11,676 nucleotides of DNA from Nitrososphaerales archaeon TH526 (GTDB lineage: Archaea > Thermoproteota > Nitrososphaeria > Nitrososphaerales > Nitrososphaeraceae), in the NCBI GenBank assembly GCA_014523665.1, contig JAATVR010000179.1, forward strand, positions 1 through 11,676. The letters are read 5' to 3'. The notes under the pieces were generated by a model. The model had not been told where the DNA came from, ran no database searches, and saw only the letters and a program-made list of their open reading frames with translations. The position numbers were made by a program, and so were the translations under genes. Below are positions 5,098 through 11,623 of this stretch, piece by piece. Each line of letters starts with the position of its first letter. Position 1 is the stretch's first letter.

Positions 5098-5928
5098 TCA
5101 TTCTTTTACTGTCTTAATAACTAGACTGGTAATCCTTCTGTTATCAACCTGATCTCCTTCGATATAGATCTTTTCCTCTAACACCTCTACATTCTCAAAT
5201 CCACCCTTTTTGATGCTAGCAATGTAATTTTCCTTAGTCAGCGCACCATCAATGCAACCGCACCACTGATCTGGGTTTATCAACGAAGTGCCTTCTGCTA
5301 TTTGCCTATCCGTAACAAGATCTGAGATAACCATTCTGCCAATTCCATTAGGTTTGAGAATTCTGTATATTTCTCTAAATGTCTTTGCCTTATCTATTGT
5401 CAGATTAATTACACAGTTGCTTATTACAACATCTACACTGTTTTCATCAACCGGAATTCTTTCTTCAATATCTGACTTTCTGAATTCAACATTCGTGTAA
5501 CCATTATCTGCTGCATTCCTTTTCGCTTTCTCCAGCATTTCATCAGTCATATCTATACCTATTACTCTTCCGGAGCCTTTGACTACGTTAGCTGCTAGAA
5601 ATACATCAATACCTGCACCCGAACCTAGATCCACGACCGTATCACCTTCCTTAATGAAAGCAAATTTTGTCGGAGTTCCACATCCCGCTCCTAGGATAGA
5701 CGCTTCTGGTATTGAACTAAGCTCTTTAGTGTCATATCCTACTAGTTCAGATACTTCTGCAGCTGCTGATTGTGAAGGTTGTAGAACTGTATTACTGTTT
5801 CCTGAGCAACATGCTTCTCCACTTTCAACCCTCACCGAAGGACCACAACAAGAATCACCTGTCAAAGCTAACTTTCCATATTTTTCCTTCACCTTTTCCT
5901 TTATTGTTATTAAATCAGTCATATACAT
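5098..5928 (-). CDS. arsM: Arsenite S-adenosylmethionine methyltransferase ArsM
   Basis: A 276-residue class I methyltransferase that methylates As(III) to mono-, di- and trimethylated arsenic with SAM, in the cytosol. Seen (numbering from ATG 5928): SAM-binding glycine motif VVDLGSGAGIDVFLAA (98-113), acidic motif VIGIDMTDEML (122-132), and the cysteines that match the three As(III) ligands of characterised ArsM: C83 in LGAGCGTPT, C172 in ISNCVINL, and C223 in DQWCGCIDGAL, with C225 adjacent. The N-terminus adds two CC pairs (C27/C28 in DSCCGP and C40/C41 in EACCSG), also usual in microbial ArsM and probably arsenic-binding. Length is normal and all motifs are intact. The third codon is also ATG (5922); a TATA-like element centred at 5949-5950 is 27-28 nt before 5922 but only 21-22 nt before 5928, so 5922 may be the real leaderless start. 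A divergent HxlR-type regulator is 59 nt away. Confidence 0.93.
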   Translation of the reverse strand: MYMTDLITIKEKVKEKYGKLALTGDSCCGPSVRVESGEACCSGNSNTVLQPSQSAAAEVSELVGYDTKELSSIPEASILGAGCGTPTKFAFIKEGDTVVDLGSGAGIDVFLAANVVKGSGRVIGIDMTDEMLEKAKRNAADNGYTNVEFRKSDIEERIPVDENSVDVVISNCVINLTIDKAKTFREIYRILKPNGIGRMVISDLVTDRQIAEGTSLINPDQWCGCIDGALTKENYIASIKKGGFENVEVLEEKIYIEGDQVDNRRITSLVIKTVKE

Positions 5929-5944
5929 AGGTTTACCATGGAAA

Positions 5945-5954
5945 CTATTTAAGT
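5945..5954. promoter_or_regulatory. Shared TATA-like element between arsM and the HxlR-type gene
   Basis: The near-palindromic ctatttaagt is the only convincing TATA-like sequence in the 59-bp gap. On the minus strand (acttaaatag) it is 21-28 nt before the two possible arsM starts. On the plus strand it is about 38 nt before ATG 5988, which would leave a leader of about a dozen bases. A regulator bound over it would control both genes at once. Confidence 0.5.
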
Positions 5955-5987
5955 TGTCAAGAGAAGCTAGGTAAAGTAAGTGTAAAA

Positions 5988-6404
5988 ATGGAAACTAAAG
6001 CAAAATCTAAAAAATCAAGAGTGTCGAAAAGAGCTGGAAGGTCCCTTCCTATTGTTCATGAATCATGTAACTTCACAGGTTATGATGCTGAACTACTTAT
6101 GAATGAAACTGAAAAACTAAGGGAATTGATTACTAAAAGAGGAACACTTGAAATCTTAATACCTCTATGCTGCACTACAGATCCAGTTCGTTATATAAAG
6201 TTCAGAAGATCTATGAAAGGATTTAGCAGCAAAACACTAGCAATAAGACTTAAACAACTAGAAGGAAATGGAATTCTTGAAAGGAAAGCATATAATGAGA
6301 TACCCCCAAGGGTTGAATATCGCCTTACAGGTAAAGGACAAGAACTTGTAGAATCAGTGATAGGTCTATTACAATGGATGAGGAAATGGTCTAATTTAGC
6401 TTAA
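5988..6404 (+). CDS. HxlR-type winged-helix regulator with three cysteines, candidate arsenic sensor
   Basis: A 138-residue DNA-binding protein. Seen: basic N-terminal tail (KAKSKKSRVSKRAGRS), then the HxlR/MarR-like order of helix (RGTLEILIPLCCTTDPVRYI, 51-70), F-R-R-S-M-K-G-F-S-S-K-T-L recognition region (72-84), helix AIRLKQLEGNGILERKAY and the wing with IPPRVEYRLTGKGQEL (105-120), ending in the dimer helix LLQWMRKW. HxlR members act as dimeric repressors or activators, some through thiol chemistry. This one has C27 (ESCNFTG) and the vicinal pair C61-C62 placed where most family members have ordinary hydrophobic residues. With divergent arsM sharing its promoter, I infer an As(III)- or thiol-responsive regulator of arsM and of itself. 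It could instead sense oxidants, or act elsewhere. No ArsR-type signature (ELCVC) is present. Confidence 0.82.
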   Translation: METKAKSKKSRVSKRAGRSLPIVHESCNFTGYDAELLMNETEKLRELITKRGTLEILIPLCCTTDPVRYIKFRRSMKGFSSKTLAIRLKQLEGNGILERKAYNEIPPRVEYRLTGKGQELVESVIGLLQWMRKWSNLA

Positions 6405-6525: not shown

Positions 6526-6780
6526 TTATCGATCTTCTTGATTTTGTAATTCTTCTATTCCTTTATTCGTTATACTCAACATTCTAAAATCTGCACCACT
6601 AAACTTAATTCCTACAGTTATCAATTCAAGACCTGCTAATTCGTTAATGTATTTCCGTGCTTCTGACTCTGGAAGTCCACTCTCCCCAATCACTGCTGAA
6701 TCCATAATACCGCTGCTGGGATTGCTTTCTGTTTTGTCCGAAATGATATTTAGTATTTTTTGTAACTCATTTCTAATCAT
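6526..6780 (-). CDS. Small winged-helix protein
   Basis: An 84-residue protein with a winged-helix pattern: helix NELQKILNIISDK, a segment VIGESGLPESEARKYINELA (about 30-49) that reads as helix-turn-helix with its recognition helix, then LELITVGIKFSGADFRMLSIT as the beta wing and NKGIEELQNQ as the closing helix. It resembles the stand-alone small wHTH proteins common in Nitrososphaeria and is probably a DNA-binding regulator of unknown target. Its ATG overlaps the stop of the upstream 51-aa gene in the four-base ATGA arrangement, which indicates translational coupling and a shared promoter. It faces the HxlR-type gene convergently, with about 120 bases between the stops in which I see no clear terminator. 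Confidence 0.7.
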   Translation of the reverse strand: MIRNELQKILNIISDKTESNPSSGIMDSAVIGESGLPESEARKYINELAGLELITVGIKFSGADFRMLSITNKGIEELQNQEDR

Positions 6781-10888: not shown

Positions 10889-11267
10889 TTGCCTGATACT
10901 TTTAAAGTGAAGAAGATACTGTATTCACTATTTTTCTTCTTCATTGCTGGCCTTTGTGAAATTGGAGGTGGTTATTTGGTTTGGTTATGGTTGCGAGAAG
11001 ATATGAGCTGGATATTTGGCGCCATAGGTGGGTTTATTTTATTTTTATATGGTATTGTTCCTACCTTTCAACCTTCGCATTTTCACAGAATATACGCAGC
11101 TTATGGTGGAGTCTTTATTGCAATGATTTTATTGTGGGGTTTAATCTTTGAAAAATGTTATTCCTGACTTTTATGATATATTAGGCGCTACAATAGCAAT
11201 TATTGGGATAGTCATAATATTTTATGTTCCTAGAAAAGGAGAAGAATCATTATGGCAGAAACAGTAA
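10889..11267 (+). pseudogene. UPF0060/YnfA-type small membrane transporter, frameshifted
   Basis: TTG 10889, preceded at proper spacing by aaggag, one of the few Shine-Dalgarno-like sites here, starts a protein of the UPF0060 (YnfA) family: [60 protein letters not shown] and [16 protein letters not shown]. The frame then stops at TGA 11165-11167 after 92 codons. Moving by one base at the AAAAAT run (11151-11156) continues the family's end perfectly as [20 protein letters not shown] with IFYVPRKGEESLWQKQ, ending at TAA 11265-11267. Members have four short membrane helices and are related to small multidrug transporters; the lesion removes the fourth. It is either a pseudogene, a sequencing error at the A-run, or, less likely, programmed slippage. 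It overlaps the next gene by 16 nt. Confidence 0.8.
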
Positions 11268-11623
11268 TTACAGATAACCTAGCATTAAGCGTATTTACAA
11301 GTATCATATTGTTTTTTGTAGCGGCACTTGCTGAAATCGGTGGAGGATATCTTGTATGGAAGTGGATACGCGAAAGAAAAGGAATAGTGTTTGGCTTATT
11401 TGGTGGAATCATTTTATTCATTTATGGTATCATCCCTACACTACAACCTTCTAGCTTTGGAAGGGTTTATGCTGCGTACGGTAGAATCTTTGTTATATCT
11501 GCAGTTATATAGGGAGTGTTTATAGACAGAAAAAAACCTTACGATCATTTCAGATTATTTTGTGGCCGTATTATTACCATTGCCTTTGAATCAGTTATTT
11601 TTTATTTTTCAAAACGTTTTTAG
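11252..11623 (+). pseudogene. Second UPF0060/YnfA-type gene, broken by an amber codon
   Basis: ATG 11252 (MAETVITDNLALSVFTSIIL) starts a close paralogue of the preceding gene: [40 protein letters not shown] and TLQPSSFGRVYAAYGRIFVI. At 11510-11512 TAG stands where relatives, and the upstream copy (ILLWGLI), have Trp; TGG to TAG is a single change. After it the same frame goes on as GVFIDRKKPYDHF, and weaker similarity (IITIAFESVIFYFSKR) continues to TAG 11621-11623. The usually invariant second Gly of AYGG is Arg here, a further sign of relaxed selection. A purine-rich ggagaagaatcatt precedes the start, inside the end of the first copy, so the two were once co-translated. The truncated 86-residue product would lack the last helix. 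After 11623 I see nothing. Confidence 0.78.

Follow-up and report, generated by a model that had tools for sequence, protein, structure and literature searches.

The locus described here raises the question of whether an HxlR-family regulator, encoded divergently from the arsenic methyltransferase gene arsM, acts as an arsenic sensor. It lies in the window, by which we mean the whole 11,676-nucleotide stretch of Nitrososphaerales archaeon TH526 DNA that was analysed; it corresponds to contig C17 in an assembly of 4.9 Mb and 833 contigs (96.6% complete, 5.3% contaminated). Few microbes are commoner in soil and sea than ammonia-oxidising archaea, which, judged from the comparisons below, appear to control their arsenic-detoxification genes by an HxlR-family regulator instead of the usual ArsR.

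The regulator gene was placed at 5988..6404 on the forward strand based on a 138-aa open reading frame, a PF01638 match, and the conservation of its cysteines. The interval of 5929..6404 given in a preliminary description of this DNA holds for the end of the gene; what begins at position 5929 is the intergenic region. The protein matched PF01638 (HxlR) in Pfam over residues 47-136 with an E value of 3.7e-19 and 68.8 bits against a cut-off of 20.8, and the only other Pfam match at E <= 0.01 was a sub-threshold one to PadR, with none to the ArsR family. PF01022 (ArsR-type HTH) was not matched in Pfam at E 0.01, which leaves the protein outside ArsR/SmtB, and an ArsR-family match was likewise absent from the combined Pfam and NCBIfam results at the limits used. 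Its sequence also matches solved HxlR-family chains (e.g. 1yyv, 4a5n, and 7bzd), and a winged helix is expected. The regulator thus belongs to the HxlR family and not to the ArsR family, as had been proposed. Its sole cysteines are those noted previously, C27 (codon 6066-6068) and the vicinal pair C61 (6168-6170) and C62 (6171-6173), all on the forward strand.

The facing gene, arsM, was located at 5098..5928 on the reverse strand and encodes an As(III) S-adenosylmethionine methyltransferase, which scores 265.8 bits with the NCBIfam model NF008823 for arsenite methyltransferases, above its cut-off of 263. It aligns with the solved arsenic methyltransferases 4kw7/4fr0, and its C83, C172, and C225 fall on the GCG, SNCV, and ECL cysteines of those proteins, presumably the substrate-binding cysteines of arsenic methyltransferases. 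Among 82 distinct ArsM sequences, C83 was kept in 78/79, C172 in 79/79, and C225 in 79/79 of those covering the respective site. The description of an intact, divergent arsM therefore stands, as does the 59-bp gap, measured start to start; the gap would be 65 bp if ArsM starts at the internal ATG at 5922, which may well be the true start because the nearest orthologues align from residue 3 and because the distance from the TATA-like box would fit better. A single TATA-like element was found in the gap, as reported.

The window arsM is not followed by arsC and an aquaglyceroporin gene (aqp), and contig C551 of the same assembly carries arsM-arsC-aqp with a regulator of its own. Downstream of the window arsM, on the same strand, a CPA2-type cation/proton antiporter (PF00999, 3561-4784) occupies the place where many relatives carry arsC-aqp. 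Elsewhere in the window, a small winged-helix protein (6526-6780, weak PF14947 match) is convergent with the regulator, and tandem YnfA/UPF0060 membrane proteins (PF02694) are encoded at 10889-11167 and 11252-11512. Two further contigs carry such a UPF0060 pair: C631, where it adjoins a regulator copy (L184 178-899), and C817, where a one-mismatch version of the operator described below is close by (L173 35-756).

Cysteine conservation was assessed by aligning the window regulator with the best 120 of 3856 database homologues (E 0.001 or better). C27 was kept in 120, C61 in 121, and C62 in 120 of these 121 proteins, so that the three residues, which the preliminary description had asked to see compared, do not vary freely. 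Exactly three cysteines were present in 115 of the best 120 homologues, four in 3, and two in 2. Named loci for regulator homologues (n = 39) were labelled Nitrososphaerales, Nitrososphaeraceae, Nitrosocosmicus, Nitrososphaeria, or Thaumarchaeota, with Nitrosopumilus appearing twice. The fetched loci yielded 94 distinct regulator matches, 82 of them with an ars partner. All three cysteines were found in 17/17 regulators with arsM-arsC, in 10/10 with arsC-aqp and no adjacent arsM, and in 41/42 with arsM-arsC-aqp, the remaining one (L082) being split and not covering the site. C27 was aligned in 12/13 regulators with arsM alone; the gap in L095 is an alignment shift, and its cysteine is present. 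Wherever the site was covered, the 82 partnered regulators thus kept the three cysteines. Regulators without an ars partner had them in 8/12 cases, and the four exceptions are broken (L079, the same gene as L100) or truncated (L101, L135, and L139). A regulator copy containing a stop (L081) retains all three.

Gene neighbourhoods were compared in two families of the order, the window's own (f1), which is taken to be Nitrososphaeraceae, and a second (f2), which is probably Nitrosopumilaceae. In the 70 genomes of the window's family, the regulator (E 1e-20 or better) was detected in 54 and arsM (E 1e-40 or better) in 52; 50 genomes had both, 4 the regulator only, 2 arsM only, and 14 neither, counts that are partly driven by the incompleteness of some genomes. 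Both arsM-only genomes show traces of a regulator beside arsM, namely a frame of ~93 residues in G038 and a regulator-like start cut by the contig end in G045. None of the four regulator-only genomes has an adjacent arsM; three have arsC-aqp there and one (G021) has nothing.

With a split copy in G067 counted once, the window's family contains 84 regulators, of which 67 are divergent to arsM within 1 kb, mostly with gaps of 45-156 bp; some of these arsM copies carry internal stops. The other 17 face arsC-aqp (4), a truncated or decayed arsM (4; G068:C211, G015:C39, G023:C632, and G005:C11), an arsM cut by the contig end (1; G035), or a cysteine-rich peptide (1; G000:C755), are themselves at contig ends (2), or have no ars neighbour (5; G067:C253, G021, G053, the broken G016:C32, and the truncated G066:C338). 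The second family was surveyed within 350 genomes of the order, and 28 of its 38 regulators are divergent to arsM, with arsC in between in 4; among the other ten, six stand opposite arsC-aqp, one (G526) stands opposite a degenerate arsM accompanied by arsC and aqp, one lies at the end of its contig, and two are truncated. The pairing with arsM is therefore present in related genomes: in the two families together, 95/122 orthologues have a divergent arsM within 1 kb, and 10 more face arsC-aqp. Neither of the two refutations set out in the preliminary description came true. Linkage to arsenic genes is thus conserved, as would be looked for in an arsenic-responsive regulator. Only 7/122 have no ars gene in their vicinity; five belong to the window's family and two, both truncated, to the second. 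Three of the seven (G053, with an adjoining P450 gene, G021, and G067:C253) have intact cysteines and operator. Beyond these two families, the 350 genomes of the order contained no match to the regulator at E 1e-25, and 300 genomes sampled across the phylum yielded only weaker ones (best 1.9e-19).

The earlier tie to arsM held, and in relatives the target usually reaches beyond methylation. Of the 72 distinct arsM-linked regulator sequences, 59 showed arsC behind arsM, and 42 of these showed aqp too, counted within 2.6 kb and as far as the locus ends allow. In Pfam, the arsC proteins score above the cut-off of LMWPc and the channels beside arsC above that of MIP; the arsC proteins also match the NCBIfam thioredoxin-type arsenate reductase models, below the cut-offs of these. 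In eight genomes of the second family, arsM was found and no regulator match; the arsM match is close in six and at 44-46% identity in two. Five loci from this family (L147-L151, in G137, G487, G494, G520, and G591) hold arsM without regulator or operator; in L147-L149, a gene of 257 aa precedes arsM, which in L147 is a rhodanese gene, and the genomes are small (1.1-1.4 Mb).

The intergenic region was examined column by column. A candidate operator that the preliminary description does not mention, the palindrome GTTTAC-CAT-GGAAAC, was identified at 5931..5945 (no strand assigned) from conserved intergenic columns and genome-wide exact matches; its consensus is GTTTAC-N3-G[TA]AAAC, also written GTTTAC-N3-GnAAAC, and it is joined to the TATA-like element TATTTAAG at 5946..5953, which is conserved by column and readable in both directions (CTTAAATA for arsM). 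The element TTGTCAAG at 5954..5961 on the reverse strand was also conserved, and here CTTGACAA, in the arsM direction and directly upstream of the arsM TATA-like box, is a candidate BRE. Ahead of the regulator start, TAAAGTAAGTGTA (5972..5984, forward strand; positions +30 to +42 of the columns) is conserved in a form that varies between families and is a candidate initiator or second site. When 77 distinct intergenic sequences were aligned on the AAAC half, the pattern read GTTTAC, about 4 free bases, [GT]AAAC, and [CT]ATTTAA, followed less strictly by GTTGTCAAG, and the flanking columns were variable. The strict form GTTTAC-N4-[GTA]AAAC[CT]A occurred in 58/77, with 0.0 expected under mononucleotide shuffling, and the perfect GTTTAC-N3-GTAAAC in 22/77.

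Exact operator matches numbered 73, in 46 of the 70 genomes of the window's family, against 1 for the reversed control. Regulator starts accounted for 54 of them, and only 54/84 regulators have the exact form. These matches are partly by construction because the pattern was derived from those loci, and matches away from them therefore serve as an independent test. Eight further sites lie at other arsM starts, and the operator also precedes the second gene of tandem arsM pairs and a solitary arsM-arsC-aqp operon that has no regulator adjoining it. Of the other 11 sites, six lie ahead of cysteine-rich peptides (G030, G043, G066 twice, G068, and G069), one faces a decayed arsM and regulator (G025:C277), one faces an arsM fragment (G053:C114), and one heads an aquaglyceroporin gene beside a truncated regulator remnant (G045); the last two precede only a short METK-starting frame (G025:C184) or have no visible relation (G047:C12). 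The exact operator was absent from 27 genomes without a regulator match except G045, in which the contig breaks off within what looks like a regulator start next to arsM, and a truncated regulator stands at the second site. It was absent also from the five arsM loci L147-L151, a co-loss with the regulator. The putative target promoters thus share one candidate operator. The tandem arsM genes of L180 and L181 each have an operator copy to themselves and are followed by arsC and aqp.

Relaxed patterns were not specific. With up to 2 mismatches, 61 matches were obtained in 18 genomes against 138 for the reversed control, and two-mismatch sites were rejected as background. At one mismatch, the 27 genomes without a regulator match gave 4 matches against 12 for the control, and three one-mismatch sites located away from regulators, G005:C1 (before a SnoaL-like gene), G066:C5, and G000:C817, were not counted in the regulon, since the control matched too. 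A one-mismatch operator in L179 (3417-3851) that precedes a SnoaL-like gene close to an ars locus may be background.

Directly behind the operator lie short frames for cysteine-rich peptides, 28-48 residues long and unannotated (in L086 3017-3145, reverse strand, and L174 3562-3708, forward strand, and in L175, L233, L234, L178, L230, L094, L096, and L098). The operator-led P0121 (48 aa) contains CCDDSCC and carries GGGCC at its C-terminus, has no Pfam match, has 8 unnamed or hypothetical database relatives, and aligns with the ArsM N-terminus; some of the peptides resemble that N-terminus. A 42-aa form is encoded in the window's own assembly (C755), forms of 28-30 aa precede an ABC-2 transporter gene in G030 and G043 (assigned by domain match for G043 and by eye for G030), and forms of 28-34 aa that end in CKCCCCC lie ahead of arsC-aqp in G002, G031, and G034. 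These peptides may be small arsenic-binding peptides.

A single genome from another family of the order, G389, carries an arsM that is 61% identical and divergent from a PF01022 ArsR with the sequence MCVCEV (CVC motif); this arsM is followed by an SBF-type transporter that we take to be ACR3-like. Since this related arsM faces a classical ArsR, the one case suggests that ArsR was replaced by the HxlR-type regulator.

From the computed family membership, cysteine conservation, synteny with two arsenic routes, and conservation and genomic specificity of the operator, we infer that the regulator binds the palindrome, represses, and binds As(III) through C27, C61, and C62. The arsenic role first proposed for it gains support from the linkage, and further support from the exchange of arsM for arsC-aquaglyceroporin as partner together with the shared operator. 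That the protein regulates an arsenic regulon is very probable, that it is a repressor probable, and that the three cysteines sense As(III) directly is likely; an arsenic-responsive repressor of the ars regulon on an HxlR scaffold, sensing As(III) via C27/C61/C62, is as a whole a reading that we hold with good confidence, and the protein likely works like an ArsR. In the proposed mechanism, the dimer would bind GTTTAC-N3-GTAAAC, covering the expected arsM transcription start, and the other side of the palindrome would abut the TATA-like box of the regulator's own promoter. Without arsenic, arsM (or arsM-arsC-aqp) and the regulator would both be repressed. As(III) would then be held by three thiolates, from C27 in the N-terminal extension and from the C61-C62 pair that immediately precedes the recognition motif, perhaps with both subunits contributing, and the loaded dimer would leave the DNA, so that the operon is expressed.

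The main rival is a thiol-redox or electrophile sensor of the HxlR/DUF24 kind (YodB, HypR, QsrR), because proteins of this family are thiol sensors; disulfides or adducts would form under oxidative stress, and the ars operon would be induced in a general thiol-stress response. Characterised HxlR/DUF24 members sense HOCl, quinones, and diamide via conserved N-terminal cysteines (PMC6943732, PMC8063818, PMC6798810). A disulfide switch needs only two or more cysteines, which three conserved ones fit, and a zinc-type alcohol dehydrogenase is convergent to the regulator copy on C551. The exact operator sites of the window's family, in contrast, occur almost only at ars genes or remnants of them and at cysteine-rich peptides, and no recurrent quinone reductase or dioxygenase was seen among the limited set of neighbours scanned. 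As a control for the cysteines, a PF01638 search of 12 genomes returned 53 rows, and the 30 loci fetched comprised 7 orthologues and 23 other HxlR proteins; the orthologue L218, translated in a wrong frame, was left out of the tree and of the orthologue counts, which leaves 6 readable. C61 and C62 were absent from 23/23 of the other HxlR proteins of the same order and present in 6/6 readable orthologues. A cysteine stands 13 residues before a GKKW-like motif in 21/23 of the other proteins, whereas C27 stands 25 residues before it in the window protein and in 6/6 readable orthologues; the equation of C27 with the usual N-terminal HxlR cysteine, suggested by an alignment column, was therefore rejected. 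The displaced cysteine marks the regulator and its orthologues as a divergent HxlR subfamily. In a tree of 48 proteins, 16 orthologues formed a single group (support 100/99) on a long stem, with a program warning of long branches. The cysteine at position 49 of the HypR chain, which we take to be its Cys49, aligns opposite M76 of the window protein and not with C61 or C62. A redox switch is, on balance, unlikely.

Equally doubtful is a repressor of the arsenic regulon that responds to another soft effector, methylarsenite or antimonite, and not to inorganic As(III). ArsM makes methylarsenite, a vicinal cysteine pair would serve, and SpArsR responds to methylarsenite and not to As(III) with only two cysteines (PMC11868830). 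Against this, all three cysteines are conserved here, even in the ten regulators beside arsC-aqp that have no adjacent arsM.

Slightly less probable again is an activator of arsM, as HxlR and HypR are in Bacillus subtilis; HxlR is named an activator in the PDB, and PMC6943732 speaks of HypR activation. The palindrome, however, sits downstream of the arsM TATA-like box, directly beside it and near the start codon (5922 or 5928). Lying between box and start, it would let a bound dimer block initiation, which suits a repressor, and its abutting the box on the regulator side suggests autoregulation. That an ordinary HxlR gene stands beside arsM by chance, with no functional link, could appeal to the 7/122 orthologues without an ars gene nearby and is hardly credible given the linkage conserved in two families, the partner exchange, the operator, and the co-loss.

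The repressor proposed here may be set beside known systems. The aqpS-arsC route of Sinorhizobium meliloti combines an arsenate reductase with a channel, an aquaglyceroporin, through which As(III) leaves the cell, as arsC-aqp would here, and its regulator is an ArsR. Arsenic-responsive ArsR repressors resemble the HxlR-type regulator in having three cysteines that could give three-coordinate As(III) binding and in the control of arsM/arsC operons that is proposed here, and differ in protein family; the likeness would therefore be convergent if the arsenic function is right. CgArsR uses vicinal Cys15 and Cys16 with Cys55 of the other subunit, and the Arsenicibacter rosenii arsR-arsM-arsC operon is As(III)-inducible with a co-transcribed ArsR (PMC11868830). 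The former layout resembles the putative As(III) site of C61 and C62 with C27; the latter operon shares a regulator, ArsM, and ArsC, and its counterpart here has a divergent regulator of HxlR type. With the HxlR/DUF24 thiol sensors (YodB, CatR, HypR, and QsrR, and HxlR itself), the regulator shares the PF01638 domain, cysteines, and a palindromic operator, which for YodB is preferably TACT-7-AGTA (PMC8063818). It departs from them in its putative arsenic effector and ars-gene targets, in the 25-residue spacing of C27, and in the added C61-C62.

In the open-access literature, outside which subscription papers and preprints mostly fall, no report linking HxlR to arsenic was found, the sole co-mention of HxlR and arsM being in a Staphylococcus species description, and no paper on arsenic sensing by ammonia-oxidising archaea was found there. 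A broader proposal, whose chances we judge evenly balanced, is that ammonia-oxidising archaea have replaced ArsR by an HxlR subfamily in which a three-cysteine site of its own evolved, and whose regulon takes in arsM, arsC, an aquaglyceroporin, and arsenic-binding cysteine-rich peptides, of which some would stem from the N-terminal part of ArsM and one kind lies ahead of an ABC-2 transporter gene. The operator offers an immediate route to reading the regulon from sequence. An HxlR arsenic sensor, if confirmed, would mean that a redox-sensor family can be converted into a metalloid sensor, would offer arsenic biosensors a second scaffold to build on, and would account for the regulation of archaeal arsenic methylation.
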